From: a virus
DNA length: 30,949 nt
Reading direction: 5' to 3' (one strand)
IMG/VR virus record: IMGVR_UViG_3300047276_000094
Coordinates: 1-30,949 of that record
Shown here: positions 56 through 30,932 of the stretch, one piece after another
Layout of the letters: the number at the start of each line of letters is the position of its first letter
Numbering within the stretch: position 1 is the stretch's first letter
Made by a program: the position numbers and the translations under genes
Notes under the pieces: model-generated
Told to the model about the DNA's origin: nothing
Seen by the model: only the letters and a program-made list of their open reading frames with translations
The model's database searches: none

Positions 56-505
56 ATGAACAAGAAAGTGCTGGGCTGTGGAGTCGAAGAACACCACGAA
101 GATTGCCTGTGCGATGTCCACATCAGTGGTGAACCGTGGGAAGTCAAAGTGACAATCCCGTTGGATTACTGGTGCGGTCAGGAAATCGTTGACCATTTCG
201 ACCTTGGGGTTCCGTGGACGGGTGCTGACCTTGCAACCTTCTTCGAGAAACTCGCAGAGGTGAATGGTTACATCAACAGGAAAGGGCAGGTGCACCATGT
301 GCCAGCGCCAAACAAGGAACCCCGTGAAAGAGCAATCAAGAAGTTGAATGCTGAACAGTTGGAGGACTTGAAGGATTGGATTCGTTCAGGGATGATGCCA
401 ACACCGTGCGTGAAAGCAATGATGGACACACACGGAATCGTCATACACAAGTCGTATGTGACGAAAACAAAAGTACGAATGATTCGTAGAGGAGAACTCA
501 AGTGA
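56..505 (+). CDS. Hypothetical early protein, possible C-terminal helix-turn-helix
   Basis: This 149-residue protein is the first gene of the left operon. The ATG at 56 is chosen because AAGGA lies 8 to 9 nt upstream; the open frame extends to a GTG at 14, but that codon is inside a hairpin and has no ribosome site. The N-terminal half has Cys/His residues (GCGVEEHHEDCLCD, about 7-20) that could bind metal. The last 60 residues are basic and look helical, with an LNAEQLEDLKDWIRSG helix followed by a second helix and a basic KSYVTKTKVRMIRR segment. This resembles a helix-turn-helix DNA-binding module, but no family is recognised. It overlaps the next gene by 4 nt (GTGA). By position at the head of the early operon it might be a regulator; that is inference. 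Confidence 0.7.
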   Translation: MNKKVLGCGVEEHHEDCLCDVHISGEPWEVKVTIPLDYWCGQEIVDHFDLGVPWTGADLATFFEKLAEVNGYINRKGQVHHVPAPNKEPRERAIKKLNAEQLEDLKDWIRSGMMPTPCVKAMMDTHGIVIHKSYVTKTKVRMIRRGELK

Positions 506-1344
506 AGATAGAAGGAAATGACATCTACATCCGCCAGTCATGGTTGGGAGATGCACTGATTTGCATGGAGCGTGGACGGCTGACAATCACACAGCCGAAC
601 TGGAGAGTCGGTTCAGACTCGACAGTTCTTGGCACGGCATGTCATTCAGGCATCGAGCATTACATCGACAACGGCGGAGATGTTTCGTTGAACGACATGA
701 GAGAAGCAATGGTGCAGTCCATTCGCACCAACGAAGAGACTTTCAAGTGGACCGCAATGAAAGACGAAGACGACATGATTCGTTATGGCGATGCCATGCT
801 CGGCGCATGGTGGCGAGACATCAGACCAGATGTGGCGTTGGGCGGACTGGTGGAACACAACTTCACGGTTGCCGTCACGAAGTTCATCGTTGACAACACG
901 GAGTACGCTCTGCACTACACTGGGACGATGGATTACATCGCACCAGACGGAACAATCTGGGACTGGAAGACTGCGAACCGCAAATACTTCCAAGGCGAGA
1001 AGCAACGCCAGTCGATTCAGGCAAGCGTGTATTCGACAGCCGCAGTGTCGCTTGGTCTTGTGCCAGCGTTCCCTGTGTCGTTCAAGTTCGGGGTTATGCT
1101 CCGAAAGGACAAGTCGGAAGGACAAATCGTTGAGGTGCGCCGCACAGAGGCGCACTCATCATGGCTCGAAACGCAGACGAAAAACATTGTGTCGTCTGCA
1201 CTTCGATTGGGGCAGGATAATCCGTGGCTCCAAGTTGACCAGCACAACCTCTGCTCAGAGCAGTGGTGCCCGTGGTGGTCAATCTGCAAAGGCGCTCACC
1301 TCGGTGAGCATGAGAACCGCTGGAACCCAGCGGACGAAAGGTAA
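502..1344 (+). CDS. Cas4/RecB-like PD-(D/E)XK exonuclease with probable Fe-S cluster
   Basis: This 280-residue protein carries the signature of the PDDEXK_1 / Cas4-AddB nuclease superfamily. Visible motifs in order are Cys21 near the N-terminus; GTACHSG with His48; Glu118 in LVEHNF; Asp144 in GTMDYI; the DxK pair Asp154/Lys156 in IWDWKTAN; and the QxxxY-type motif QASVY (173-177). A C-terminal Cys triad follows (Cys251, Cys256, Cys262). Cys21 with the triad matches the four ligands of the 4Fe-4S cluster in Cas4 and AddB. Such proteins process DNA ends during phage recombination and replication. The start is a GTG overlapping the previous stop, preceded by GAGGAG. It sits immediately before the helicase-primase block, as in many actinophages. 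Nuclease assignment is strong; exact polarity and role are not visible. Confidence 0.85.
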   Translation: MKIEGNDIYIRQSWLGDALICMERGRLTITQPNWRVGSDSTVLGTACHSGIEHYIDNGGDVSLNDMREAMVQSIRTNEETFKWTAMKDEDDMIRYGDAMLGAWWRDIRPDVALGGLVEHNFTVAVTKFIVDNTEYALHYTGTMDYIAPDGTIWDWKTANRKYFQGEKQRQSIQASVYSTAAVSLGLVPAFPVSFKFGVMLRKDKSEGQIVEVRRTEAHSSWLETQTKNIVSSALRLGQDNPWLQVDQHNLCSEQWCPWWSICKGAHLGEHENRWNPADER

Positions 1345-1355
1345 AGGTACCCACA

Positions 1356-1781
1356 GTGGACAAGGACAAGAGCATCATCATTCAGGTTGCCGCAAAGATT
1401 GCGGCTGACTTGACGGGGAAGAGCGAGCGCAATGCTGACGAGAAGGTCAGCGAGTTCGCAATCATCTTCACTGATGTCAAGGACATCCTTCTGGAGAGCA
1501 TCTACGGACAGGTTCAGCAGGCAGTATCTCGCAACAGCGAGGAAGCACAGGTTGCCATGATTCAGCAGGCATTCCCTGATGCCGTTGAGGTCGACATGAG
1601 CGTCAAGGTTCGTGGCGAACAGCATGGCGAACTTCCCTCGTGGCTGATTGCGGCTTGCAAGCGTGACGGCATCACGGAGGTCTACGACAACCGTGACGGT
1701 CTCGCACAGAACCCGAAGCGTCCGTGGTTCAAGGCAGTGAACGACAAGGAAAAGGCTTACTGGCCTCCTCGCTCGAAGTAA
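1356..1781 (+). CDS. Small replication-module protein with degenerate zinc-ribbon-like C-terminus
   Basis: This 141-residue protein starts at GTG (1356), 11 nt after the nuclease gene. Residues 1-70 are mostly helical and acidic. The C-terminus (VYDNRDGLAQNPKRPWFK followed by DKEKAYWPPR) recalls a zinc-ribbon pattern I associate with phage replication proteins, in which WDNR is followed by PDFKC, a second Cys and a terminal WP. Here the second-knuckle cysteines are replaced and only one Cys (in ACKRDG) remains upstream. If related, it has lost metal binding. Its position between an end-processing nuclease and the helicase suggests an accessory or single-stranded-DNA-binding role. That is inference from context only. 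Confidence 0.65.
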   Translation: MDKDKSIIIQVAAKIAADLTGKSERNADEKVSEFAIIFTDVKDILLESIYGQVQQAVSRNSEEAQVAMIQQAFPDAVEVDMSVKVRGEQHGELPSWLIAACKRDGITEVYDNRDGLAQNPKRPWFKAVNDKEKAYWPPRSK

Positions 1782-1795
1782 CAAGGAAAAAACAA

Positions 1796-2836
1796 ATGAG
1801 ACTCACACCAGAACAGATTCTGGCTGGGTGGGACACGGTGGAACGGGGCGACAATGTTGCCCCGTTTCCTCGTGAATACCGCCTTTACCAGCCTCTCACT
1901 GAAGCCGCACATTCGTATGTGCGATGGGCGCAAGCACCGCATGAGCGCATCTACACAGGTATCAGCAAACTCGACACGGAGATGCGTGGCATAGCCCCAG
2001 GAGAGTTGGCAATGTTGCTTGGGTATTCTCACGGCGGAAAGACACTTGCCCTCATGCACATGCTGATGCAGAACGCAGACAAGAAGATTGCCTTCTTCAT
2101 TCCAGACGAACCACGCACACTCGTGCTCACGAAGTTGACATGCATGACACACAATGTTGATGCTCGTGACCTAGAAAGGCGTGTCGCCCAGAACGACCCT
2201 GATGCAATCGACCTCTTGCGTATGACCGCAGAAGAGATGTATCCCAACCTTGCAGTGTTTGACCAGCCGTTGACACCCAGCGACATGGAGCGTGCATTTG
2301 GCGAGGTGAGCGACCTGTGGGGAGCAAAGCCCGACCTTGTTGTCATTGACTATCTCGAACTTGTCGAAGCAGGCGAGATGGTTCCAGAGAAAGCAGGGTT
2401 CGTCAAAGGCTTTGGTCGTCGTCACGATGTGCCACTGTTGGTGCTTCACCAGACATCACGCTCCAGCGGTGCTGAAGGCAAGAAACTCACAATGTCCAGC
2501 GGTGCTTACGGTGGTGAACAGCAAGCAACCAGCATCATTGGTGTACGCAGAAAGAAGTACGAAATCATCTCGGAGATAAACGAGTTGATGGAGAAGTTGG
2601 ACCGCAACCCGACAGAGCGCACGCAGGAGCGGATGGAAATGTTGCGTCACGAACTGAAGATTCATGAGTACACAATCACTCTCAGCCTGCTGAAGAACAA
2701 GAGACCAGGAGGCATGCTTGTTGACGACATCGACTTTGAGTTGGACATTCACACGGGGCGCATCTACCCCCTGCGTGATGGCGAACTGCCCGACCAGTAT
2801 CTCCGCTCAATCAACAGAGAAGGGTTGTACGGATGA
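1796..2836 (+). CDS. DnaB-type replicative helicase (RecA-like ATPase domain)
   Basis: This 346-residue protein has a DnaB/RecA-like ATPase core. It shows Walker A GYSHGGKT (76-83), Walker B LVVIDYLEL (181-189), and a LLVLHQTSR segment (214-222) matching the sensor/Q-loop motif of DnaB helicases. The N-terminal region is only about 55 residues, so the usual DnaB N-terminal helicase-primase interaction domain is missing. A charged, coiled-coil-prone stretch (about 250-300) follows the core. The frame is open from a GTG at 1724, but the ATG at 1796 has AAGGA 8 to 9 nt upstream and is preferred. It overlaps the primase gene by 4 nt (ATGA), so helicase and primase are probably co-translated. It is expected to unwind the phage replication fork. 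Confidence 0.88.
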   Translation: MRLTPEQILAGWDTVERGDNVAPFPREYRLYQPLTEAAHSYVRWAQAPHERIYTGISKLDTEMRGIAPGELAMLLGYSHGGKTLALMHMLMQNADKKIAFFIPDEPRTLVLTKLTCMTHNVDARDLERRVAQNDPDAIDLLRMTAEEMYPNLAVFDQPLTPSDMERAFGEVSDLWGAKPDLVVIDYLELVEAGEMVPEKAGFVKGFGRRHDVPLLVLHQTSRSSGAEGKKLTMSSGAYGGEQQATSIIGVRRKKYEIISEINELMEKLDRNPTERTQERMEMLRHELKIHEYTITLSLLKNKRPGGMLVDDIDFELDIHTGRIYPLRDGELPDQYLRSINREGLYG

Positions 2837-3720
2837 ATGTACTAGACGACTTCGTGACCCTGTTCAGGGGTCGTGGAGATGCATACGGCTCATGGGAAGG
2901 CGGATGTGTTCGTTCCGCTGTCACACAAGAACTATTCATGTCTCATCTGACGGGCAAAGAAATGTTCGGCGTGTATCCACTCGTGCCATTTGAAGGTGCA
3001 TTTGGTTGCGTCTGGGGATGCAGTGACATTGATGTCGATGACCTCGATGCGGCTCGCAACCTGCAAATGGCATTCGCACTAAAGAACATCAACGCACATG
3101 TCGAGAAGACACGCAAGGGTTACCACATCTGGGTGTTCGTTGACTCGCTTGTGCCAGCGTCAACAATGCGCAGAGCATTCCTAGCCGCACATCAAGCAAT
3201 CAACTATGTAGCCAAAGAAGTCAACCCCAAACAGGAAGACATCGGCAAGGGATACGGCAACTATGTACGCCTCCCCTACCCGAACGGTTTGAATGAACTT
3301 CCAGAGAACAGGTACATGCTCGATGACGATGACAAGCCAGTCGCATTGGTCGACTGGATTGTTGAAGCGAAAATAACACGAACAAACAGAAAGACTCTTG
3401 ACAAACTCGCTCTCCTCTACACGCCACCACAGATACTCAGCGTTGCCGTAGGCGAAACAACAGAAGATGTTAGAATGTTGCTGAAGAAGGTTTCGGTCAT
3501 TCCGTACATCATCTGGCGTGATGGACCATACAAAGGCTCGGACCGTTCGACGGCGCTGTACAAACTGTGCCACCGTCTAGCAGAATCAGGACTAACGCCA
3601 ACAGAAGCGTTCACTGTCCTGAAAGACGCAGACAAACGGTGGGGCAAGTTTCATTTGCGTAGCGACGGCGACTTCGAACTCATGAAAATGATTGACAGCG
3701 CATACGGAGCACAGCAATGA
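2833..3720 (+). CDS. Archaeo-eukaryotic-type primase (TOTE-like primase domain)
   Basis: This 295-residue protein matches the primase module of TOTE-type AEP primase-polymerases. Asp65 and Asp67 in SDIDVDD form the metal-binding hDhD motif. KGYHIWVF (96-102) supplies the conserved His98 of the sxH motif. The segment around VNPKQE...GNYVRLPYPNG (130-152) matches the conserved region ending in RLPY, with Arg146 the probable basic residue. Residues after about 200 look like a helical C-terminal domain. It lies directly after the helicase with an ATGA overlap, giving a two-gene primase-helicase pair. Stand-alone AEPs can prime and sometimes polymerise. No separate DNA polymerase is encoded, so this protein may carry more of the synthesis than a plain primase. 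Confidence 0.85.
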   Translation: MNVLDDFVTLFRGRGDAYGSWEGGCVRSAVTQELFMSHLTGKEMFGVYPLVPFEGAFGCVWGCSDIDVDDLDAARNLQMAFALKNINAHVEKTRKGYHIWVFVDSLVPASTMRRAFLAAHQAINYVAKEVNPKQEDIGKGYGNYVRLPYPNGLNELPENRYMLDDDDKPVALVDWIVEAKITRTNRKTLDKLALLYTPPQILSVAVGETTEDVRMLLKKVSVIPYIIWRDGPYKGSDRSTALYKLCHRLAESGLTPTEAFTVLKDADKRWGKFHLRSDGDFELMKMIDSAYGAQQ

Positions 3721-4461: not shown

Positions 4462-4917
4462 ATGAGCAAAGAGTTTCACCAAGCACCGTTTGCGGTCAGG
4501 TACACCCAGATGGGAGATGTTGCAGAAGGCGTATTCGAACATGTCTTTCCTGCACACCACCGTCTAGGTCTAAACCGCCCCAATCTTCGAGTCATGTCTC
4601 TTCCATACATCACACGCTTCCTTCCAGACTTCCTCACGGCAGACGGAATGGTCGAAGTGATGGGAATCGGACGGGACAAGACACTCAAGTTCAAGATTGA
4701 GAAAATGCACAACCTCGTGAAGTGGTCAATGATTTGCCCAGTTCACCTGTTCGTCTACGACTCAAGCAGAAAGAAGTGGTACTACGCACCGCTCGAACAA
4801 TGGTTCGAAGCGGCAACAGCACACGGACAACTTGACCACTTCGAAGACAACGGAAGCGCATACCTTCGTTTGCTGTCAGACAACTTCCCATGTGAAGGGG
4901 TGAAATACGATGGCTAA
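4462..4917 (+). CDS. Putative PD-(D/E)XK-fold nuclease-like protein
   Basis: This 151-residue protein has an ATG three nt after the previous stop, with a GGGGTGA ribosome site. It contains PDFLT followed by VEVMG (Asp56...Glu65) and a LKFKIEKMHNLVKW helix (75-88), with Glu22 upstream. This arrangement (E, then PD, then ExK with a following helix of K/W) is that of small PD-(D/E)XK endonucleases and Vsr/MRR-like proteins. The usual catalytic Lys after Glu65 is Met67, so activity is uncertain; lysines at 76, 78 and 81 could substitute. The C-terminal part (YDSSRKKWYYAPLEQW) continues a mixed alpha/beta fold. Neighbouring RusA and primase support a DNA role. This is a fold-level guess. Confidence 0.6.
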   Translation: MSKEFHQAPFAVRYTQMGDVAEGVFEHVFPAHHRLGLNRPNLRVMSLPYITRFLPDFLTADGMVEVMGIGRDKTLKFKIEKMHNLVKWSMICPVHLFVYDSSRKKWYYAPLEQWFEAATAHGQLDHFEDNGSAYLRLLSDNFPCEGVKYDG

Positions 4918-5773
4918 GCGTGAAGTGAGCACAGACTTCTACGGAAGGAACACGCCACTTCATGCATCACGCCCCCTCACAGAAATCGAAGCGCTCATGC
5001 AGGCAATGCCTCTAGAAGAGCCACAGGAATCCGTCATGGAACTCCAACCTCTCAGGGAAGCAGTAGCGCACTGCATTGACCAACTCGATGAACAGGACAA
5101 ATGGATAATCGAAGCATTGATGTCTGAAAACATCAGCCTTCAGCAACTCGCAGAAAGAATGGGCGTAACAAAGACCCATGTGTGGAGACTGCGAAACAGG
5201 GCATACGACAAACTCCACCGAATCATGATTACTGACACAACCATTAGAAGGAGAATCAAAGTGGCAGACACATGGGGACAAGCGGCAGGACAGTGGGTCA
5301 ACCACTTCTCAAACCTCAGCACTGTGCCAGCGGAAGCAGACATAGAGGGAATGATGAAACTGCGTGACAATGCGTCAATCGCAATCAGCATGAACCTCGA
5401 ACCGTCATCTACAATCTGGAACATCATCGCCACAAACGCAATCAATGAACTGCGGATGCTGGGATGCTGGGATACAGGTCGGATGATTCGAACACTCTGT
5501 TCGAAGCAGAACGACTACGGACATGGAAATGTCAACAAGTTTGGAATCATGGGAATCGCAGTCCGTCTCTCAGACAAGATTGAACGACTTGCCAACCTCA
5601 AATCCAAAGGAGAACAATACTATGTAGCCAACGAATCGTTCGTCGACACGCTTGTCGACATCGTTGGATACTGCGCCATCGCACAAATGTTGAACGATGG
5701 CACCTTCAACCTTGAACTAGAATCAGACTGGTTCGAAGCAACATCATCCCTAGAAGGAGTCATCAATGACTAA
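4910..5773 (+). CDS. Sigma-70 region 4-like HTH fused to DUF1599-type domain
   Basis: This 287-residue protein has two recognisable parts. Residues 47-108 resemble sigma factor region 4: LREAVAHCIDQLDEQDKWII, then SLQQLAERMGVTKTHVWRLRNRAYDKL, a canonical helix-turn-helix. Residues about 190-262 match the DUF1599 / nucleotide-modification-associated domain 1 pattern: KQNDYGHGNVNKFG (199-212), VRLSDKIERLANL (218-230) and ESFVDTLVDIVGYCAIA (242-258), with the conserved DYG, DKIxRL and DTLxDxxGY residues. Sigma regions 2 and 3 are absent. It overlaps the previous gene by 8 nt, with GAAGGGG 9 nt upstream of the ATG. The HTH part may recruit host RNA polymerase to phage promoters; the second domain suggests a link to nucleotides. 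Joint function is unknown. Confidence 0.8.
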   Translation: MAKREVSTDFYGRNTPLHASRPLTEIEALMQAMPLEEPQESVMELQPLREAVAHCIDQLDEQDKWIIEALMSENISLQQLAERMGVTKTHVWRLRNRAYDKLHRIMITDTTIRRRIKVADTWGQAAGQWVNHFSNLSTVPAEADIEGMMKLRDNASIAISMNLEPSSTIWNIIATNAINELRMLGCWDTGRMIRTLCSKQNDYGHGNVNKFGIMGIAVRLSDKIERLANLKSKGEQYYVANESFVDTLVDIVGYCAIAQMLNDGTFNLELESDWFEATSSLEGVIND

Positions 5774-5984
5774 CGAGAACACCCCATCAAACGACCTTGA
5801 CAACGACCTCATCGGAGAAGAGATTCATCCGTTTGGAGCAGAATGGATTGCCGCACACCTGCTTGCAATCATCATCTTCCTTGAAGACAAGTTCGGAGAC
5901 ACAGCAGGACATGTCATCGGCGGAATCGCCGCAGACCTTCTCAAAGAGTTCACCAACCCTGAACAGGAGACTGCTCCTGAATGA
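5766..5984 (+). CDS. Small acidic protein with one hydrophobic helix
   Basis: This 72-residue protein overlaps the sigma-like gene by 8 nt and has a strong AGAAGGAG ribosome site. The ends are acidic. The middle (WIAAHLLAIIIFLE, residues 27-40, then AGHVIGGIAADLL) is hydrophobic and could be an amphipathic or weak membrane helix. No family is recognised. Confidence 0.65.
   Translation: MTNENTPSNDLDNDLIGEEIHPFGAEWIAAHLLAIIIFLEDKFGDTAGHVIGGIAADLLKEFTNPEQETAPE
5964..5979 (+). promoter_or_regulatory. Hairpin sequestering a ribosome-binding site
   Basis: CAGGAG (5964-5969) and CTCCTG (5974-5979) form a perfect 6-bp stem with an ACTG loop. It ends one base before the ATG of the 55-residue gene at 5981. 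The AGGAG half is the likely Shine-Dalgarno sequence, so the site would be masked unless ribosomes translating the upstream gene open it. This fits strict translational coupling. Confidence 0.5.
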
Positions 5985-6496: not shown

Positions 6497-6927
6497 GGGC
6501 GATTATCAATCGGAGTCTTGGTGCCCCAAGAATCCTTCGTGGTTTCAATGTGCAACCACTTAGCCCATTCCTGACCCATGCCATGCGAGTTGGGCTTCTG
6601 CTTCTTCCACCCATGTGCCAGCGTCCAAATGCGGAGACCCACATAGTCGACAATCATTTGCACGCCCAACTTGGCGTGCTCCTTGACCATCCAATCCATC
6701 GCTTGCACAGCGTGCTTACGGTTGGTGTAACGCCAGTCAAGAGCGGCACCAAACGAATGCGACGAAGGTGAAGTCCCACCACGCACAGGGCGGCGGTTGT
6801 AAATACCAACACTGGTACCCCCATACACCTTGATGAGAACATCCTTCAACTCCACCAGATTAGGTGAAGCCTTACGGAACTTGATGTAGTCAGCCTTGCT
6901 TGGCTTCTGCCAGTTGTAATAGGTCAC
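6493..6927 (-). CDS. M15-type peptidase endolysin (D-Ala-D-Ala/L-Ala-D-Glu type)
   Basis: This 144-residue protein has the zinc-site motifs of M15 (VanY/endolysin) peptidases. SSHSFGAALDW supplies His57 and Asp64 (the SxHxxGxAxD motif), and KWLHIE supplies His126. There is no signal peptide and no added wall-binding domain, so export through the holin is expected. It would cut peptide bonds in host peptidoglycan at lysis. It is the last gene of the late operon and overlaps the stop of the giant virion gene by 4 nt. It is far from the holin candidate (21 kb). It could alternatively be a virion-associated lysin because it follows internal virion genes. Confidence 0.85.
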   Translation of the reverse strand: MTYYNWQKPSKADYIKFRKASPNLVELKDVLIKVYGGTSVGIYNRRPVRGGTSPSSHSFGAALDWRYTNRKHAVQAMDWMVKEHAKLGVQMIVDYVGLRIWTLAHGWKKQKPNSHGMGQEWAKWLHIETTKDSWGTKTPIDNRP

Positions 6928-9900
6928 TCTACAAACCCCAACGCTTTCTGCTGTGCCATGAAACGCTCCATGGCTTTCTTCCTGCTATTTGCTTCACGGT
7001 CGATTGTCTCTGTAGGAACATTCCTAACTGGCAAACCAAACCATGATGCAACCGAGGCACCTTGCCTCTCCTTGTATTGGTCCGTCGACGGGAACAGTCT
7101 TTCGGCTGTTCCCAAAGGCGGAATCAAGTTCTGAATCGCATAGTTAGCCTTCTCACTTGTCAACACATTTCCGCTTGCGTCAGTTTGCAACTGACCAAGC
7201 AGAGCCAACAATGGGCTTGCGAGTTTTGAACCAACGCTCAACTGTTGCGGTGTTTCAGTGAACTGTTGACCCGTGTACAACTTCGTGTTGCCAGACAACT
7301 CAATAGGCAGACGCAACAGTGGGTTCATGTACGACAGCAAACGATTGGGCTGACCAAGTTCAGCAATCTGCTGATTCACACGAGTGAACGGTAGGTCAGG
7401 CTGAAGCCACATGCCTCCGCCAATCTTGAAAGCACCTGATTCTTTCATCCAAGGCGGAACAACATCTTCTTCCGTCGACTGGTCAAAGTTGCGTACAAAC
7501 GAGTTGTAAATCGCATAAGCCCTTGGGTTCGTCCAGCGGTTGACCAACTGGTTCGGAATGTTTCTAGACATAAATGTCCAGAACGGAACAATGTTGCGAA
7601 CAGCCTCATCAGCCGTTGAAGGATTCATGTAGTCAATCAGGTAACGGCGTGTCTCAGCCGTAGCCATCTCGACATCCATTCCCTTCTTGATGCGGTCATA
7701 AGCAAACATGTAACGACGCACAAAATCCTGCTTGTGACCAGTGCGCTTCATCATGTTCAGGAACTTGTTGTTGTAAATCCATGTGTCGCCACGAACCATG
7801 AACTCATCAAGAGCGTCAGTGAACTGACCACCGCCACTAGCCAATGCCGCCTGCATTGCCTTCTCCGCATCTCCTCGCTGTGCCTGCGGAATCTTGTTCA
7901 ACCATCCCTGAGGGTCATCAATGTATGGCGAGAGGTGCGGAAGAGCCTCTCGCATGTTTCTAATGTCTGCATTGCCAGACAACATAGAGAACATGTCGCT
8001 CATTGCGTTGCGCACATGGAAGCCAGGAGAAGCAGTTGCATACGCCTTGAAGAACTGTGTGTACTTCGCCATGAAGTCAGTCGCTCGCACAATCCCACCA
8101 GGAGCATTGAATGTCTTCGTAACATTCTGCATTGCTTCAGCAACAGCCTTAGGAACTTGAAGTCCTGGCATACCAAGGTCAACAACCTGCCCCTTGCGAA
8201 GAGCCTTCTTATCTGTCTTGTCGGCACCCTTGCGCAAACGCTTGAGATTCTTCAGTTCATCATCCGTGTATCCACCAAGACGAACCCAACCTTCATTCAG
8301 AAGAGCAACAGTTTCTTTGCTACCAAAACCAGCCTTTACCTTGTCGAGAAGTTCCTTCTCAGACACAACCATCTGGTCAAATGCACGAGATTGGAAATCC
8401 GCAATCTGAGCCTCAGCAAACAAAGCCAACGCTTTGTTAGTTGGGTCAGCGTCAAGACGGTCAACAACTTCCTGCGCACGCTTACCCCAAGCAGTCAGTT
8501 CATCACGAGCGGCTACATCAAACTTGCCAGAAGGCTTTGACGGGGCGTTCTTCAGAACCTCATTGACAGCCTCGATGCGTTCAACCAACATTGGCTTGAT
8601 TGATTCAACAGCACCCTCAGCGTATGAAGCCGCAAGACTTGCATCACCAAACACAACCTGAGCCTCAGACAGCCTGCGAGCCGCCGCTTCCTGAGCACCA
8701 CTAGCCTTATCGAAGCGACCAGCAATCCTTGCCTGTGCTTCTTCCAACTGCTTGTACAGACCCTTTCGGGCTGTCTTGCCATTCTTGTCAATAGTGCCAT
8801 GAAGAATCGCATTGAGACCCTGAATCGCTGGCTCCCAATCCTTCAACTTCTGATTACGAACAGTTTCCGCAATAGGAGTCAACTTGGCTAGACGAGCCTC
8901 ACGCTGTACGAGTTCTGTGCTGGCGGCAAGCCTTGCCTGACCAACCTGTTCCAACTGGCGCACAAGGCTCTCAGCCTGTTGCGACAGTTTTACAGTTGTC
9001 TTCTTCAGACCAGCCTCACGGCTAGCCTTACCCATCGCATCCTTTGAAGCCTTGTACAGTCTGTCAACAACACCCTGCAACGCCTGCTCACCAGCATTCT
9101 CCAAACGAGAAGGACTGATACCAAGTTCACTGGCGGTAGGAATGTAAGGCTTGGTGTTTGCTGGCTTACCAGCAGGAATACCCTTTACCCCAGCAACATC
9201 CTCCGACAAGCGAGCGGCTCTAGCCGCTTCTTCACGGGCACCATAAAGACCAGCCTCGATAGCACGCTCGTAGCCAGCAATGGATTGAAGGTCAAAACCC
9301 TCACCGCCCATAATGGTCTTGAGACGCTTCTGCAAGAAAGCAATCTCTTCATCGAGATTGCGCTGTAGACGCATTGGAGCAGAACCAGCAAGGTCGTTGT
9401 ACTCTTTCAGGAGTGCATAATCCTGTGTTACACGCCAACCGTTCTGCAAAGAATCAAGACGGGAACTAGCAGTTGCACCATCAACATAATCAGACGAGAA
9501 GATAAAGCGCTTTACGCTTTCTGGCGTAACAGTAAAGTTTGAAGCAAACTCGTCAATGAACTTGTTTATCTCACTGAACTTGAGAATGGCTGTCTGCCTA
9601 ACCGAAGGGTCAGCCGCCTGACGAGCAATCTTCAGGTCTTCCAACTCGTTGCGCAAACTTTGTGCTTGGTTTCTGAATCGTGAACGAACACTATTGCTTG
9701 TTGCGCCACTAGCACGACGCTCAAGTTCTGCAATCGTTCTTTCTGTTTCTGCAATCTGCTTGTTCAATCGACCACGAGTCTGAATGCTCATGTCTCCAGA
9801 GAACAAAGAAGCCCATTCACCACGACTGAACGACAATCCATCAATAGTGTCATCAGCCCTCAAAGCATCAGCAAGAGAAATGCCTCCACGGTCAGTAACT

Positions 9901-12900
9901 TGACCAACACCGCTCTCTCGCACAAATGCGACGAGGCGGTCACGGAAAGAAATGCCGCCCATCTCACGACCAGCAAATCTCTTGAGAGTTTCGTACATCT
10001 CCTGAGAAGCCTTCGCCATGGCAAACTCTGGGGTTTGCTCGATGGCACGCAGGCGCTTGTTGACCTCATACTGTTGGTCAACTATCTCCTTGGGCTGGTA
10101 CTGTCGACCAGCAGGAGTCTCACGCACAAACCCTTCAGTTGATAGATTGCGGTTGATTGCAATCTGCTCATCGGGGGTAGTCTTCTGAACAGGGCGTGCC
10201 GCCATTTGGAGGTCTTGAAGTTCAGCCAACTCTCCTTGAGCAGTAGCCAACTGATTACGGTAACGCCCCTTCAACTGAGGAGTAGATGCCTCACGAACCT
10301 TCTTCTTTAGTTCAGAAATCTGCTTCTTCTTGTTAGCAATCTCTGGTGCGTAAGCCTTCGTCTTCTTGTAGCGAGTCGGAGGCATCGGGGGGACTTCCTG
10401 CGGACCAGCAAGAGAAGCAGGAAGAACACCAGTGTCAGCCGCACCACGCTCAGCCGTGCGCAAACCAAGAGAAGCCTCAACATCAGCCGCACGACCACGA
10501 GCACGACCAAGCAACTCAGTTGAACGAGCAATACCATCAAGTTCGCCCTGAATACGAGCCGCCTGAATCCTGAAAAGGCTTGCAACAGTCAAAGGTGTCG
10601 ACTGGTATTCTCCAGCAAGAATCGCACGAGGGTCTGCAAACGGGTCAAGCGCAACACCGCCAGCCTCGGCAGAAACAACAAACTTGCCGTTCTCAAACGG
10701 ATACACATTGCGGAACAATCTTGTCATCTTTGAAATCATCTCTGATTCACGAGCAAGAGATTCACCAGCAATGTCGATAATCATCTGTGAAGGAAGTGTC
10801 TGTGTCTGAAGAGAAACAATCGCTTCACGAACCTTCTTGTTGCCACTCTTTGTCAGGACACGAACACCTTGATTGTCGCCAGTGCGACGAATCTTGTAGT
10901 CAACATTCTTCTCAAGAAGACCAACCTCAGAGTTGTACCACAAAACGAGACTGTCACTAGCCTCCATAGCACGATTCTGAAGCACCTTAGGTTCGGTTGT
11001 GCGAGCGATTTGCTCACCAACAAGTCCAGGGTCAGTAACAGCGCCTCGCTCAATAGCGGAGGCGGTTTCTTGTGTACGGGTAAGTTCACCATAAGCCTGA
11101 GTTGGCTTGGCACGGTCCAACTCTGTTCGCCAATCACGAACAGAACGCTCATAGTCATCCCACACTTTACGAATGCCAGACACCTTGGTATCAATCTTGA
11201 ACGAGTCCAATGTTCCAACGACATTCACCAAGAAGTTCTTCTTGCTCTTCTGGTTGAATGTCTTGGCAATCAACTCTTCAACAGGTCCAAAGTCTCCGCT
11301 TGCTTCCGCTGACACAAGTGCGGCACGCAGTTGTGACAACTGAGTGCGAGCACCATCAATCTGCAACACACGGTCCTGCCAGATGTTTCCACGCTCGTTC
11401 AGAACAGATTCTGTAATCATGCGGAGATGATTGTCTGTGATTTGCAGACCCATCTCGGACATCAACTCTTCAGTTGCAATAGACCTACGCCAAATCTCGC
11501 TAATGATGTTGTATCGCTCAACGGCAACCGCAAGATTACGGTGTACATCCTTAGCACCACGAGTCATTTCGTTTGCTCGTGCAACAGCACGGCGCTGACC
11601 CTTCTTGATGTCCATGACTTCAGTGCGGTACTCAAGTTCAGATGCATACTTCTCAAGGTCAGCAAGACCACCAATGGGTTCCTTGTCCGCCCCTCTAAGC
11701 CCCTTCTTGCCGCCACGAGTCAATGGCTTCAACTGTTCATTTGCATTCAAGGCAAACTTCTTGACTGTTTTGTCCTGACCAAACCCAATGGTATGAACCT
11801 TTGACTCAAGTTCTTGTGCACGATTGCGGAGCATGCGAATCTGTCCATCAATCTCATCAAGGTCAGAAGTTTGTACTGGCACGATTCGACCAGAACCCTT
11901 CTTGTTTACACCAATGACACGACCGTCTTTGGCGTACTTGATTTGGACACCGTTCTGGATACGCAACTCCTCAAGTCGCCTATCCTTCTTTGCCATAAGG
12001 TTGTCAATCTCCCCAAGGATGACATCAAGTTCTTCCTTGTCAGAGTTCATCAAACGCAAGGCACGCTCAGCCGCTTCCTTGCGGTTGTATGTCTTGTTTG
12101 ACTTACCACGACCAACTTCACGCATTGTGAACCTACGGTTTCCAGCAGAAACCTTCATTGCGTCAATCAGTTCATCTTCCGCTTGCACAAGTTCGGGCGG
12201 CATCATCGCACGAACAATCTGGTTTACCTGTTCGGGGTCAGTTATTCCCCTTCGTGCCAGCGACGACTCAATAGACGACACAAAGAAATCATGAGCACGG
12301 GCAATCATGTTTGCTCCAACACTCTCTGTCTCATAGAGAGTGGAGGACATACGAGCCGCATTATTCAAAATGCGCTGACGAGTATCGCCAGTCATCGAAA
12401 TAACCTTCTCGTCATTCAGGGGAGCAATCTGCGTAATACCCTTGTACCAAGAAGATTCAGTCAGTCGACGCTGAATACCTTCACGAGTTCCAGCCGCCAT
12501 ACGGCGCTGACCACGAGCCGCAACAGACTTGCCCTTTGCAATACCAGACAACTCCTCGACACCTCTGCGAATGTCTGCGGAATAAACAAACGGAAGATTC
12601 GAAGGAGTAATCTCCCCACGCATAATCCTGTCAAAGTTCGTGGCAAAGAACTGCTGGTACACCGCAGTCTTACCAACCGTTTCAGCAATGTCATTGAACT
12701 GTGAATCAATCGTCTTCAGAGTTTCCCGAAGAGCGGCAACAGCCTGCTCTTCCTTGGCAAAGTCATCAAGCCAACGCTTCGAATCCTCAACAGAACCCAT
12801 CGCAGAATCAATCATCTGATTCAGGTCATTCTTTGCTTTGTCAATCTGGTCAACAAGCACCTTGACCAAACTTTCATCACCCATGTTGTCAATAAAGAAC

Positions 12901-14675
12901 AAAGAACGCATGCTTTCGCCAAGAACCTCAAGGTCGGCAACAGCAGAATCAACTTCTTTACGGGCTTCGGAAAGAGCATCCTGAGCAGACTTGTAGCGCA
13001 ACTCGACATCACCAAGAACAGCGTTGTCAGCATTGCGAGCCGCATTCATCGCATCATTCACAGCCGCCATGAAACGACCAAAAGCATCCTTGGTCTTTGT
13101 GTTCGCTGTGCCAGCGAGTTTCATGACATCCTCAACACGCTTCGACTGCTGGGCAATCAGTTCACTATTTGGAACTGCACGCTGAATCACACGGTCAAGA
13201 ATGCCCTTATCATCCAGATACTTGAAACGAGCAAGGCGACCCATTTCTTTAGAATGGGAAGCCACATAGCCACGCAAAACGGGAATAGCGTTAGGCTCAA
13301 AGAAATCACCCTTGAAGCCACCAGCCTTGGCAATCTCATTCAGACGCTTTACAGTCAGGTCATCCTCTGTGAGAACAACACCAAAGAACTTTGTCTTTCC
13401 ATCAGCAACAAGACGACGAGGTTCAACAAATCCAGGACGACGCAACTGGTCTGGAGACAAACGCAGAACCTTCTGAAGAATCGAATCATTCCCTGCGTAC
13501 TCCTTGGCGGCAGGAGTCATGATGTGGGGGAAATAGTTCTGCTGGTATCCGACACCAGCATTAGGGTCAAGAGCCTTTGTCGCACTATCAACACGACCAT
13601 GAAGTTCATCCAAGAAAGTACGAACACGCTGAACAAATGAACGCTCAGCATCAGTCGCCGTATCAAGAAGAGCGGGATTCTCAAGAAGGTCAGAAGCACG
13701 AGACCCCAAATCAAGAAGAGTCTTCTCGTTCATTCCACCAAGAACAGTGTCACGCAACTGCGCATTGGCAACATTGCCAGCCTGAGCCGCAACAGCCCTC
13801 TCTGTGTCAGCGGAACGAATAACATCGATGTACTGCTTTGCAGTGTCTGAATCTGGTACAAGACCACGCTTCAGAGCCAAGCGTGCGCTATTTGCGTCGC
13901 TTGGCGTGAATGCATTGCGAATCGCTTGCACAAACTGACGGTCGCTAACCAGCAGTCTCCCCTTGGCAAAGGCACGCTCGCCAAACTCTCCAACCTTTGC
14001 TGTTCCCTTGATTCTCTGACCCATGAAATACAGACCAGCCTGATTCAAACCAGCAAGTTCACGCTCAGCAGGTGTAAGGAACCAAGAACCTTCACGAACA
14101 AGTTTCGCCGCCCTAGTGGCATCACCGCCAGCATCAATCAACTTTCCAGCGGCGGCAATCTTGTTGCCAAAACCAGCGGCACGAGCCGTACCAAGAGTCA
14201 AGTATGTAGTTGGGTCAAGAGCCACATCGCCAGCAAAACCAATAATGCGGTCAACCCACTGGTTGCCAGTGTCTACAAAATCACCAAACCCAAACGAAGG
14301 ATTCTTTGCCTGCGTGTAGAACTCCTTGAGGGATGCATCACCCTTTCCAGACAGAAGGTCGTAATACTCTTTGCCTGCTGAAATGACAACACGGCGAGGA
14401 ATGTCCAGAACACTGAGTGGAGCAAGAGCCTGCTTGATTCCAGGAGCGCCAAGAACTTTCGCCGCAACACCCATAACACCGCTAGGCGGACGCTGACCCT
14501 GAGCAATAGCCTCAAGGCGAGCCTGAATACCAGAACGCTGTTCCTGTGGCACATAACTCAGTTTGTTCATGGCACTACTGTAAGCACCCTGAATCACTGG
14601 ATTGTTAGGTATGGCGGAAGTGGTCGCCTTTCCTGATGCCAGATTCTTTACCCTGCTGTCAATGATTCCAGCCAT
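6924..14675 (-). CDS. Giant internal virion protein, probable DNA-ejection protein
   Basis: One uninterrupted frame encodes 2,583 residues, a quarter of the window. The N-terminal part contains the GFAGDVALDPTTYLTLG segment (about 140-157), which I associate with large virion proteins of short-tailed and actino phages. The middle (about 500-2,100) is rich in Glu/Lys/Arg/Gln/Ala with long coiled-coil predictions by eye (for example KKKQISELKKKVREA and TERTIAELERR). A C-terminal region has GFHVRNAMSDMFSML (about 2,217-2,231) and VPFWTFMSRNIPNQLV (about 2,360-2,375), a motif pair found in phage proteins carried inside the capsid. No enzyme motif was found by eye. It follows three smaller internal-protein candidates and precedes the lysin. 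By analogy with T7 gp15/gp16 it may form a channel for DNA entry. Confidence 0.75.
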   Translation of the reverse strand: MAGIIDSRVKNLASGKATTSAIPNNPVIQGAYSSAMNKLSYVPQEQRSGIQARLEAIAQGQRPPSGVMGVAAKVLGAPGIKQALAPLSVLDIPRRVVISAGKEYYDLLSGKGDASLKEFYTQAKNPSFGFGDFVDTGNQWVDRIIGFAGDVALDPTTYLTLGTARAAGFGNKIAAAGKLIDAGGDATRAAKLVREGSWFLTPAERELAGLNQAGLYFMGQRIKGTAKVGEFGERAFAKGRLLVSDRQFVQAIRNAFTPSDANSARLALKRGLVPDSDTAKQYIDVIRSADTERAVAAQAGNVANAQLRDTVLGGMNEKTLLDLGSRASDLLENPALLDTATDAERSFVQRVRTFLDELHGRVDSATKALDPNAGVGYQQNYFPHIMTPAAKEYAGNDSILQKVLRLSPDQLRRPGFVEPRRLVADGKTKFFGVVLTEDDLTVKRLNEIAKAGGFKGDFFEPNAIPVLRGYVASHSKEMGRLARFKYLDDKGILDRVIQRAVPNSELIAQQSKRVEDVMKLAGTANTKTKDAFGRFMAAVNDAMNAARNADNAVLGDVELRYKSAQDALSEARKEVDSAVADLEVLGESMRSLFFIDNMGDESLVKVLVDQIDKAKNDLNQMIDSAMGSVEDSKRWLDDFAKEEQAVAALRETLKTIDSQFNDIAETVGKTAVYQQFFATNFDRIMRGEITPSNLPFVYSADIRRGVEELSGIAKGKSVAARGQRRMAAGTREGIQRRLTESSWYKGITQIAPLNDEKVISMTGDTRQRILNNAARMSSTLYETESVGANMIARAHDFFVSSIESSLARRGITDPEQVNQIVRAMMPPELVQAEDELIDAMKVSAGNRRFTMREVGRGKSNKTYNRKEAAERALRLMNSDKEELDVILGEIDNLMAKKDRRLEELRIQNGVQIKYAKDGRVIGVNKKGSGRIVPVQTSDLDEIDGQIRMLRNRAQELESKVHTIGFGQDKTVKKFALNANEQLKPLTRGGKKGLRGADKEPIGGLADLEKYASELEYRTEVMDIKKGQRRAVARANEMTRGAKDVHRNLAVAVERYNIISEIWRRSIATEELMSEMGLQITDNHLRMITESVLNERGNIWQDRVLQIDGARTQLSQLRAALVSAEASGDFGPVEELIAKTFNQKSKKNFLVNVVGTLDSFKIDTKVSGIRKVWDDYERSVRDWRTELDRAKPTQAYGELTRTQETASAIERGAVTDPGLVGEQIARTTEPKVLQNRAMEASDSLVLWYNSEVGLLEKNVDYKIRRTGDNQGVRVLTKSGNKKVREAIVSLQTQTLPSQMIIDIAGESLARESEMISKMTRLFRNVYPFENGKFVVSAEAGGVALDPFADPRAILAGEYQSTPLTVASLFRIQAARIQGELDGIARSTELLGRARGRAADVEASLGLRTAERGAADTGVLPASLAGPQEVPPMPPTRYKKTKAYAPEIANKKKQISELKKKVREASTPQLKGRYRNQLATAQGELAELQDLQMAARPVQKTTPDEQIAINRNLSTEGFVRETPAGRQYQPKEIVDQQYEVNKRLRAIEQTPEFAMAKASQEMYETLKRFAGREMGGISFRDRLVAFVRESGVGQVTDRGGISLADALRADDTIDGLSFSRGEWASLFSGDMSIQTRGRLNKQIAETERTIAELERRASGATSNSVRSRFRNQAQSLRNELEDLKIARQAADPSVRQTAILKFSEINKFIDEFASNFTVTPESVKRFIFSSDYVDGATASSRLDSLQNGWRVTQDYALLKEYNDLAGSAPMRLQRNLDEEIAFLQKRLKTIMGGEGFDLQSIAGYERAIEAGLYGAREEAARAARLSEDVAGVKGIPAGKPANTKPYIPTASELGISPSRLENAGEQALQGVVDRLYKASKDAMGKASREAGLKKTTVKLSQQAESLVRQLEQVGQARLAASTELVQREARLAKLTPIAETVRNQKLKDWEPAIQGLNAILHGTIDKNGKTARKGLYKQLEEAQARIAGRFDKASGAQEAAARRLSEAQVVFGDASLAASYAEGAVESIKPMLVERIEAVNEVLKNAPSKPSGKFDVAARDELTAWGKRAQEVVDRLDADPTNKALALFAEAQIADFQSRAFDQMVVSEKELLDKVKAGFGSKETVALLNEGWVRLGGYTDDELKNLKRLRKGADKTDKKALRKGQVVDLGMPGLQVPKAVAEAMQNVTKTFNAPGGIVRATDFMAKYTQFFKAYATASPGFHVRNAMSDMFSMLSGNADIRNMREALPHLSPYIDDPQGWLNKIPQAQRGDAEKAMQAALASGGGQFTDALDEFMVRGDTWIYNNKFLNMMKRTGHKQDFVRRYMFAYDRIKKGMDVEMATAETRRYLIDYMNPSTADEAVRNIVPFWTFMSRNIPNQLVNRWTNPRAYAIYNSFVRNFDQSTEEDVVPPWMKESGAFKIGGGMWLQPDLPFTRVNQQIAELGQPNRLLSYMNPLLRLPIELSGNTKLYTGQQFTETPQQLSVGSKLASPLLALLGQLQTDASGNVLTSEKANYAIQNLIPPLGTAERLFPSTDQYKERQGASVASWFGLPVRNVPTETIDREANSRKKAMERFMAQQKALGFVE

Positions 14676-16786: not shown

Positions 16787-17887
16787 TTAGGTGGTCGTTT
16801 CGTTCCTTCTAGCAATCTCCAACATCTGCCTCTTGTTGGAGAAATGACGCAACTGGTTGTGGACATAGGCTTCCTGTCGTGGGACCCAAAGTGAGGCAAC
16901 TTCCTCTACCTTCTCCCAATCATCCATGCTGATGTCTTCAGTAACCCCGTAATAGGTTCTGAATCGGCTAATACCAGCCTCCAACTCTTCGTATTCCCTC
17001 TCGATAAGACCAGAAATGTCCCAGATTTCAGGATTACGGGAGACAATGAAACTCATGGAACTTGATGCCATTCTGCTGAATACCAGTTCCCTAAACCCAT
17101 CATCCATCGGTGAGATGGATGCTGGTCGCACTCGTGCTTCTTCACTTCCAGAAAGGAAGTTAGAAATCTGCATTGGAACCATCGACTGAATAATGGAAAG
17201 TTCGTCATCAGTCAAACGCAATGCCTCAATGTAAGAGCGAGCAGACAAAGCCGCTTCATCCTTTGCATTGAATGGTTCTTTCGCCAGCACAGACCACTCA
17301 TAGATGAGACGAAACACTTCTTGTAGAGTTCTTCCAGTTGTGGGAATGATGGAGTTGTTCAACTTCTCGTTTGCCAACTCGGACTTTCCAGACGATTCAA
17401 TGTAAATGAGATGCCCAACACCAGCGACAGACATGAATGATTCATAATGAACAATCTCGTCAAGTCCACTAATGACAGGTTTGGAAATCTCATTTGGGAA
17501 AGGTGCGGCACCGTAGTATCCGTTATCGCATCTCCAATCCCCGTTGATTGGCTTTGATGCTGTGAAGATGAATGTTCCAGAGTCCGCATCCAGCGGTCTG
17601 TCATACAAATCACAGATTCTTTCAATGGGATAAAGATTGAGAATCTGCGTATTGCCATCGGCATACGCAACAAGATTCTGCAAACCCAACTTCTGCAAAG
17701 GATGTTTCCATGCGGCAAGCAACGAGCCATCAGCCATCGTAAACAGGTCGACAAAGTCGACTGTTTCTAGTCCTGCTGGTGTTTGAATCCAGATGTCTAC
17801 ATCTGTTGCGTTCTTTGGCAACTTGTTCAGCAAGAAGAACATCTTGTGTGTTGAAAGAACATCGAGTGTGAATGGTGTTGTTTTCAT
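16787..17887 (-). CDS. Unknown 366-residue protein between fibre and internal-virion genes
   Basis: No family is recognised. The protein starts MKTTPFTLDVLST and is a mixed alpha/beta protein with a normal globular composition, unlike the repetitive neighbours. The N-terminal third is beta-rich (VDIWIQTPAGLETVDFVDLF; FIFTASKPINGDWRCDNGYY). The C-terminal half is helical (EVFRLIYEWSVLAKE; ISGLIEREYEELEAGISRF). It has only two Cys (109 region) and no signal peptide. AGGAC precedes the ATG by 3 nt. It ends in tandem stops TAA TAG. Given its place it could be a baseplate, fibre-assembly or host-contact protein. That is a guess. Confidence 0.65.
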   Translation of the reverse strand: MKTTPFTLDVLSTHKMFFLLNKLPKNATDVDIWIQTPAGLETVDFVDLFTMADGSLLAAWKHPLQKLGLQNLVAYADGNTQILNLYPIERICDLYDRPLDADSGTFIFTASKPINGDWRCDNGYYGAAPFPNEISKPVISGLDEIVHYESFMSVAGVGHLIYIESSGKSELANEKLNNSIIPTTGRTLQEVFRLIYEWSVLAKEPFNAKDEAALSARSYIEALRLTDDELSIIQSMVPMQISNFLSGSEEARVRPASISPMDDGFRELVFSRMASSSMSFIVSRNPEIWDISGLIEREYEELEAGISRFRTYYGVTEDISMDDWEKVEEVASLWVPRQEAYVHNQLRHFSNKRQMLEIARRNETTT

Positions 17888-17896
17888 AGTCCTATT

Positions 17897-19009
17897 CTAC
17901 GGTCCGTAATACTTGAAGGTGATACCACCTGCTACACCTGCGTTCCACCAGCCAGTACCACCCGTACCTACAACTGGTCCAGAGATTGCTGGCACAGAAC
18001 CAGCGGAACCCCATGCGGCTGTACCTCCACCGCCACCGCCGTTACCGCCTCGAAGTCCGTATGCACCACCGCCAGGACCTCCGTTTCCTCCAACATCGGG
18101 GTATCCAGCGTTTCCGCCTCCGCCGTCAGTACCTCCACCACCGCCACCTGCATAACGGTTGTAGTCAGTCGTGTAAATGGGTTGATTAGGGTCGTCGCAA
18201 CTTTGATAACAGTTGCCAAACTTGTCTGTACCACCACAGCAATACTGAACATAACCCGAAATGTATGTGTATCCGTAGTACCCAACACCACCGCCGTACT
18301 GTGGGTTGTTGCCTGAACCAGCAGTACCTGCCGCATTGGTCAACCAACCACCACCAGTACCACCACCAGCAGTCCAACTATTAGCACCAATAGTCAGTGT
18401 TGAGTTTCCACCAGAAGGCGCAGGCTGTGCCGTGCCACTGTTGTATGGTCCACCAGCCCCAACTGTGCCAGAGATTGTCTGTGAGCCACCAATAGAAGAG
18501 ACATGAGATGCAAAGATTCTGTAGCCGCCGCCACCGCCACCGCCATAAGCGGCGGAACCACCACCGCCGTACATGAGCATTTCGTAAATAGTCGGGGCAA
18601 TCGCTGAACCGCCAATGGGGGTAATGGACGGAATGTTGACGCTCCAGTTGCCAGCGCTTGTATTCAGGTATGTCTTCAGACCCCAAGTCGTGAAAGAAAC
18701 AACAGAACCAGTAACAGTACCAACAACAGTCGTAGCAACAGCACGAACATAGTAAGTGGTGTTGTTCGACAAACCAGTGACATTGAAATACGCCATCTGA
18801 TTCTGACCACTAACAGTTCCAGCAGAAACTTCAGTGTACGAAGACCAGTTGTTTGTTGTGTTGTACTGGAACTTTACTCCAGCCGCATAACCATTAGAAG
18901 AGACATAACAAACGAACGAAGCACGGTCTTGATTGAACTGCTGAACAGGGTCAGTAGAAACAACAGGAAGCAACGAAACGCTTCCAGACATGCCACGATG
19001 AAAAGGCAT
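17897..19009 (-). CDS. Tail fibre/adhesin: FN3 domain plus glycine-rich tip
   Basis: This 370-residue protein has a fibronectin type III-like domain at about 13-106, with characteristic FQYNTTNNWSSYTEV and the LSNNTTYYVRAVATT strand. A short linker follows, then a glycine-rich domain from about 150 to the end, with runs such as YGGGGGGGYRIF and GGGGGGTDGGGGN. A Cys-containing insert (CCGGTDKFGNCYQSCDD, about 257-273) could be disulphide-linked. Glycine-rich distal domains of this kind form polyglycine-helix receptor-binding tips in some phage adhesins. Its start overlaps the collagen-like gene stop (TAATG). It is the last of four fibre-type genes and a likely receptor-binding protein. Confidence 0.75.
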   Translation of the reverse strand: MPFHRGMSGSVSLLPVVSTDPVQQFNQDRASFVCYVSSNGYAAGVKFQYNTTNNWSSYTEVSAGTVSGQNQMAYFNVTGLSNNTTYYVRAVATTVVGTVTGSVVSFTTWGLKTYLNTSAGNWSVNIPSITPIGGSAIAPTIYEMLMYGGGGSAAYGGGGGGGYRIFASHVSSIGGSQTISGTVGAGGPYNSGTAQPAPSGGNSTLTIGANSWTAGGGTGGGWLTNAAGTAGSGNNPQYGGGVGYYGYTYISGYVQYCCGGTDKFGNCYQSCDDPNQPIYTTDYNRYAGGGGGGTDGGGGNAGYPDVGGNGGPGGGAYGLRGGNGGGGGGTAAWGSAGSVPAISGPVVGTGGTGWWNAGVAGGITFKYYGP

Positions 19010-30341: not shown

Positions 30342-30454
30342 ATGTCGTCCTCGTTGAGTTTGAAATAGGGTCTTTCCCCAGAATCACAGAACGGGCAGGC
30401 ACCCCAGTTTCGTGGGTACTCTTCACCGCAACGGTCGCATTCGACCAGTTCCAT
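30332..30454 (-). CDS. 40-residue zinc-ribbon microprotein between terminase genes
   Basis: This small frame starts at ATG 30454, which shares one base with the small-terminase stop (TGATG), and ends at TGA 30332-30334 inside the terminase start region. The peptide has two perfect knuckles, CDRC (6-9) and CPFC (20-23), followed by an acidic tail (KLNEDDIWN). The overlaps on both sides and the four cysteines argue it is real. It may help DNA recognition at packaging or only couple translation of the two terminase subunits. Confidence 0.65.
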   Translation of the reverse strand: MELVECDRCGEEYPRNWGACPFCDSGERPYFKLNEDDIWN

Positions 30455-30879
30455 CAGACTGCCTTCAGTTTCCTGCTGTCCCGTTCACGAGCGGCTAGAG
30501 CCGCAATCAGTTCATCAAGTTCACTGTCAGACAGTTCAGCCGCTTTCTTGTCGCTCTTGACCTCAATGGTCGGAGGCGACATACGGTTCGTAGCCTGAAG
30601 ATACAGTTGAGCAGACTTCACATCGCCATCAAGGGCACGCTCATAAAGCGTGTCAAGAACTCTCTGCGTTCGTTCTGGTGACCCTTGAATGGCTTGTATG
30701 CGTGTTTCCCACAGGTCTCGAAAGACGGGCTTCTTCTCCCAACGGCGCAGAGTCTTGATGTCGACCTCAAGGTGGTCCGCCATCTTCTGCTTGGAGACGG
30801 GTTGACGCTCAGATGGGGCAGTGCAAAGCCAGTCCAGGTACTCCTGCTGTGCTTGCGTTAGAACCATCTCTTCGCTCAT
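30454..30879 (-). CDS. terS: Terminase small subunit, homeodomain-like HTH
   Basis: The product is 141 residues from ATG 30879. A start at 30903 would put the first codons inside the inverted repeat, and neither start has a good ribosome site. An N-terminal helix-turn-helix (LTQAQQEYLDWL, then SKQKMADHLEVDIKTLRRWEKKPVFRDLW) resembles small terminases that bind the packaging site. Helices for oligomerisation follow (VLDTLYERALDGDVKSAQLYLQATNRM), and the C-terminus is charged (LSDSELDELIAALAARE). It is the first gene of the late operon and precedes TerL, as expected. Confidence 0.8.
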   Translation of the reverse strand: MSEEMVLTQAQQEYLDWLCTAPSERQPVSKQKMADHLEVDIKTLRRWEKKPVFRDLWETRIQAIQGSPERTQRVLDTLYERALDGDVKSAQLYLQATNRMSPPTIEVKSDKKAAELSDSELDELIAALAARERDSRKLKAV

Positions 30880-30892
30880 AAAGAACAGGTGA

Positions 30893-30932
30893 TTTCGTAA
30901 CATAAAGTGATAACGATTCTCAGGTTACGAAT
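30893..30932. promoter_or_regulatory. Inverted repeat TTCGTAAC...GTTACGAA, probable operator
   Basis: TTCGTAAC (30894-30901) and GTTACGAA (30924-30931) are perfect inverted 8-mers about 22 nt apart, just upstream of the small terminase. Together with the start of the window this is the divergent control region if the ends join. The right half (TCAGGTTACG) also occurs, reversed, at 24388-24397. It is a plausible binding site for a phage regulator. No convincing -35/-10 pair could be assigned. Confidence 0.5.

Follow-up and report, generated by a model that had tools for sequence, protein, structure and literature searches.

In the present study we have analysed a virus record of 30,949 bases (the window), in which a single gene on the + strand (positions 4910..5773, ATG start, 287 aa) joins a sigma-70 region 4 (sigma-4) HTH to an alpha-helical DUF1599 domain. 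This fusion is a real, conserved domain architecture, apparently new to the literature, and a search for it in other phages yielded 50 non-redundant fused genes among related phage contigs. The first-pass annotation had described a sigma-like HTH joined to DUF1599 in one protein, which is confirmed by Pfam, NCBIfam and phrog_1485 matches; the pairing, which it called unusual, is not restricted to this phage, the domain pair being found family-wide in the relatives, which are uncultured podovirus-like phages. Fusion of these two genes most likely took place several times, and an internal start still seems to function at the joint, which makes the observation more interesting than first stated. 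We propose, with a probability of about 0.42, that the gene encodes a transcription regulator of the replication operon, whose sigma-4 domain would act on the host polymerase or on DNA and would be coupled to a nucleotide-binding or nucleotide-converting DUF1599 domain.

The window is probably a fragment, as most of the long relatives measure ~36-41 kb. The fused gene shares its operon with a PD-(D/E)XK nuclease (502..1344), a DnaB-like helicase (1724..2836) and an AEP-type primase (2833..3720; Pfam AEP-TOTE, E 8.3e-15), all on the + strand, the last of which was used for the family tree. Its start overlaps by 8 bases an upstream ORF of the same operon (4462..4917, +), and its end overlaps by 8 bases the downstream ORF (5766..5984, +).

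Domain architecture of the fused protein

The sigma-4 domain comprises four helices (residues 42-106; 5033..5227, +) and is recognised by Pfam, NCBIfam and the VIA fold search. Pfam Sigma70_r4 (PF04545) covers residues 55-102 with E 1.5e-5 and 24.9 bits, above the cut-off of 24.1, NCBIfam sigma70-ECF covers residues 36-104 with E 1.3e-8, and 36/41 fused homologues match Sigma70_r4 at E 0.01 or better. In the AlphaFold2 model of the whole protein (mean pLDDT 86) residues ~22-114 align with solved sigma-4 domains with Z 8-10. The VIA fold search matched the N-terminal part to SigL-4 (Z 9.9, rmsd 3.2 over 77 residues) and to SigW (Z 9.6-9.7, rmsd 1.4-1.5 over 62 residues), and its matches to sigma-4 of WhiG, BldN and others likewise fall at Z 9-10. 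An HTH that attaches to the replication origin or to a packaging site of the phage genome, with no role in transcription, would suit a gene placed in a replication operon with primase and helicase; however, the top structural matches are to sigma region 4 and sigma families lead both the Pfam and the NCBIfam lists, and we consider this explanation quite improbable.

Sigma region 4 binds the -35 DNA element and has its site on the beta flap of RNA polymerase, and region 2 is responsible for -10 recognition and clamp binding. The fused gene does not encode a complete sigma factor. The absence of regions 2 and 3, noticed in the first reading of the protein, agrees with Pfam, which matches region 4, and Sigma70_r2 was detected neither in the protein nor in 18 family records, in a search whose positive control matched in 10 genomes. 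A single-subunit (T7-type) phage RNA polymerase was not found in the same 18 records either, the control of that search being also without a match. Since neither region 2 nor a phage RNA polymerase was found in these records, the HTH probably works with the host polymerase, and the sigma-4 domain is most likely a regulator on that enzyme and not a sigma factor. The search for a conserved late promoter upstream of terminase in 15 relatives identified no target promoter, the gene order there being too variable.

The C-terminal domain is predicted by AlphaFold2 to be a compact all-helical fold, with pLDDT 92.5 when residues 117-287 are modelled alone, and residues 118-198 are part of it and not a linker. 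Its Pfam DUF1599 core (residues 199-259; 5504..5686, +) carries the near-invariant motifs KQxDYG, RxxDKxxR and ExxxDxxxDxxGY. For the window protein by itself the score against DUF1599 (PF07659, nucleotide modification associated domain 1) falls just below the cut-off (E 2.3e-4, 21.9 bits against 25); membership is nevertheless established by phrog_1485, which matches residues 191-264 with E 1.5e-13, together with the family-wide matches, found in 38/41 fused homologues and in 74/74 aligned C-terminal domains of fused and split proteins (best E 5.6e-9). With these proportions, and with that of Sigma70_r4 given above, the domain matches are not chance. Twelve residues (K199, D202, Y203, G204, R219, D222, K223, R226, E242, D246, D250 and Y254) are invariant in the 41 fused proteins and equally in the 74 fused and split ones. 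Near-invariant polar residues of this kind suggest a putative active or ligand site, perhaps containing a metal.

To our knowledge DUF1599 has no proven activity, and no biochemical activity could be assigned to it from sequence or fold comparisons; the literature search for DUF1599 gave only unrelated papers. The C-terminal domain profile had no real match among PDB sequences, and the fold search of solved structures gave no convincing relative, the best Z being 6.0 and all matches generic helical bundles. BF1032 (3nrh) reached Z 5.8 and HisE only Z 4.6 with rmsd 8.7. Kinship with MazG-type pyrophosphatases or with DUF6378 was not supported by hhalign, which gave probabilities of 0.8% against the MazG alignment and 1.0% against DUF6378; the DUF6378 profile matches 10/74 of the family C-terminal domains, with a best E of 0.015. 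A putative role in nucleotide modification comes from the name of the domain, and ThyX was not found in the 18 family records.

Fused, split and HTH-only states

The full-length fused protein as query gave no relatives in close-relative searches of viral and genome contigs, whereas profile scans of IMG/VR returned 80 loci with the DUF1599 seed and 80 with the primase seed. States were counted after removal of near-copies, and alongside the fused genes there are ~32 split pairs, whose HTH and DUF1599 genes overlap by a few bases; the ATG of DUF1599 is usually located 0-32 bases upstream of the HTH gene end, mostly in the +1 frame. The HTH without DUF1599 was found at 31 loci (21 after thinning), and none of the 14 whole HTH-only contigs checked carries DUF1599 elsewhere. 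As many relatives keep the HTH alone, the regulator does not need DUF1599, which is an optional partner. The HTH was detected in all primase-selected loci except nine, whose contigs end within ~2.1 kb of the primase (distances calculated manually). In genome contigs the profile scan yielded DUF1599 alone, with no HTH detected in the vicinity.

Two side observations concern these states. A contig of an Actinomycetota MAG (L169, 7581-8243) encodes a stand-alone DUF1599 protein of the MSITALxxxxPxxPVTW type, as in the viral contigs L065 and L077, with no detectable HTH neighbour. In HTH-only genomes (L101, L102, L105, L110, L111, L115, L142 and L151) a conserved small acidic protein (..DWIYxIIPxDQ.. 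to ..EEGINPYE..) is encoded downstream of the HTH and occupies the place where DUF1599 is absent.

The primase tree (93 rows) needs 12 changes among the fused, split and HTH-only states, and even if only its well-supported branches are counted the fused state must have been gained or lost at least 8 times; the root is a midpoint root only, so that the direction assigned to each change is presumptive. Fused rows are located among split ones (L033 with L037, L126 with L030, L036, L136 with L038) and among HTH-only ones (L016/L021, L026). On account of these 12 changes the fusion most likely occurred several times, and as the most distant branch is in the split state, the tree is most simply read as recurrent fusion combined with recurrent loss of DUF1599. 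That the same adjacent genes have been fused more than once provides good evidence that their products cooperate, and the joining of sigma-4 and DUF1599 several times in evolution thus points to a cooperation of gene control with nucleotide handling in these phages. The functional link between both modules that had been suggested for the window is in this way supported by the fused and split linkage and by the primase tree.

A plain benefit of co-expression represents a serious rival. Two independent activities would share one operon slot, DUF1599 being a nucleotide-metabolism enzyme for phage DNA synthesis and the HTH a regulator, and their fusion would only keep them co-expressed at a constant ratio, without allosteric communication between them. 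The occurrence of the HTH without DUF1599 in 21+ genomes and of DUF1599 alone in other phages favours this possibility and counts against a coupled regulator; furthermore, the start/stop overlap in the split forms is ordinary translational coupling, an internal start would give the enzyme alone, and the operon also encodes helicase, primase and nuclease. However, translational coupling already provides co-expression, so that several fusions at the same joint exceed what co-expression needs, and we tentatively place this explanation behind that of a coupled regulator.

A predicted internal start at the joint

At the fusion joint, a Shine-Dalgarno (SD) sequence AAGGAG (5248..5253, +), contained within the codons for IRRR, lies 7 bases upstream of an in-frame GTG (5261-5263, residue 118). 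The predicted nested product is a DUF1599-only protein of 170 aa (5261..5773, +), which matches the separate gene of the split relatives. Because SD and in-frame GTG are retained where a separate gene would start, the fused gene may also yield this protein from GTG 5261. In the split relatives the DUF1599 protein begins shortly before a TW or F motif (e.g. MSNSTWESEA), and in the fused genes this motif comes directly after the sigma-4 domain, the window sequence being IRRRIKVADTWGQAA. The beginning of the C-terminal fold in the AlphaFold2 model nearly coincides with the predicted internal start, as would be expected of a protein produced on its own.

The SD/anti-SD pairing energy in the window is -8.8 kcal/mol, the 1% level among 4009 other internal start codons being -8.5. 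At the joint this level is passed in 14/49 fused genes and the 5% level in four more; the start codon is lost in one fused subclade (L007, L011, L019, L092, L095 and others). In the fused genes keeping the start codon AGA and AGG account for 9% each of the Arg codons and GTG for 24% of the Val codons, yet the site commonly reads AGA AGG AGA ... GTG or ATG. Among fused members keeping the site, identical residues use the same codon in 78% of cases at the site against 39% elsewhere, a comparison biased by the choice of members for having an internal site. An unbiased test, on all fused pairs under 60% identity and in 321 sequence segments, is weaker, and still leaves the joint among the strongest segments: those over the joint rank 2nd and 3rd and that of the SD codons 40th, the top one being the 3' end of the gene, where the ribosome site of the next gene is located. 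The internal start is thus supported, not proven, by the SD energy in the top 1%, the rare Arg codons in the SD and the raised synonymous conservation at the joint. Both in the window and in several other fused genes, an internal ribosome site where the two genes formerly met probably gives rise to DUF1599 alone as well.

The two nested proteins, sigma-4/DUF1599 and DUF1599-only, might co-assemble, with nucleotide supply during phage replication tuning the redirection of host polymerase to phage promoters, which we regard as rather unlikely. Alternatively, the sigma-4 domain could be a targeting device that brings a nucleotide-acting domain to transcribing host polymerase or to promoters, in order to affect host transcription or counter defence. 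The binding of sigma-4 domains to the polymerase flap and the absence of sigma region 2 in the genomes searched would be compatible with such a role. Nucleotide-modification-associated domains have also been listed among predicted defence domains (PMC13092281). However, the retention of a DUF1599-only form means that targeting is not always needed, and this is the least probable of the explanations considered.

Comparison with known systems and proposed mechanism

Among sequenced phages, Podoviridae sp. ct52p938 (MW202803.1, Manatee Spring, circular record) is the closest to the window, with which it is syntenic and shares primase (34% identical), terminase (51%), HTH and DUF1599. In contrast to the window, its HTH (17419-17856) and DUF1599 (ATG 17831-18292) are separate genes in different frames with a 26-base overlap. 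Between the two phages the DUF1599 sequences show 47% identity (E 1e-25). BLAST could not align the HTH sequences, and the HTH of MW202803.1 is a weak match, being reached by the family HTH profile with E 0.009. The region 16962-18999 of this record (L002) is unannotated in GenBank though it contains both genes. A0A6J5QFU4 from an uncultured Caudovirales phage (BFVD model, 273 aa) is a fused homologue, as it is 49% identical over 272 aligned columns; its label is only 'Clostridium phage phiCTP1, Gp74', with no function given. Stand-alone DUF1599 proteins (phrog_1485) of crAss-like, Bacteroides, Streptococcus and other phages have the same core and motifs and, unlike the fused gene, are without a sigma-4 HTH.

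Phages are known to use the flap site for late transcription, as the T4 late co-activator gp33 is a small protein bound to the host polymerase flap at the sigma-4 site (PMC7892883). Nevertheless, gp33 is structurally unrelated to sigma-4 and has no nucleotide domain. Staphylococcal phage dimeric dUTPases bind the Stl repressor and the nucleotide controls the contact (PMC5608427), an all-helical nucleotide enzyme being coupled there to a transcription regulator; however, these are separate proteins, the repressor belongs to another element, and no fold shared with DUF1599 is demonstrated.

In the coupled-regulator mechanism that we prefer, the protein would be a product of the replication (early/middle) operon. 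The sigma-4 domain at its N-terminus would most likely dock on host RNA polymerase and/or bind a -35-like DNA element, and the C-terminal DUF1599 domain would bind or convert a nucleotide. Both modules would act as one polypeptide in the window and as the products of two overlapping, translationally coupled genes in relatives. By analogy with the staphylococcal phage dUTPases, DUF1599 might sense or modify a nucleotide and thereby determine how active the sigma-4 domain joined to it is. We infer in this mechanism the nucleotide ligand or reaction of DUF1599, the use of the host polymerase by the sigma-4 domain and the direction of control, from nucleotide state to sigma-4 action. Control of promoter choice by nucleotide state, the first function put forward in the first-pass annotation, is plausible, though unproven; the second was a putative sigma appropriator for the late operon. 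The fusion connects a transcription factor with a domain that is common among phages, and thus offers a concrete route to the role of DUF1599 and to whether phages read nucleotide pools to time expression.

Other features of the window

At its downstream extremity the convergent structural operon contains a single ORF of 2583 aa (6924-14675, -). An inverted repeat, TTCGTAAC / GTTACGAA (30894-30901 and 30924-30931), overlaps the start of the leftward ORF 30454-30903, which adjoins the terminase gene, and represents a possible operator.
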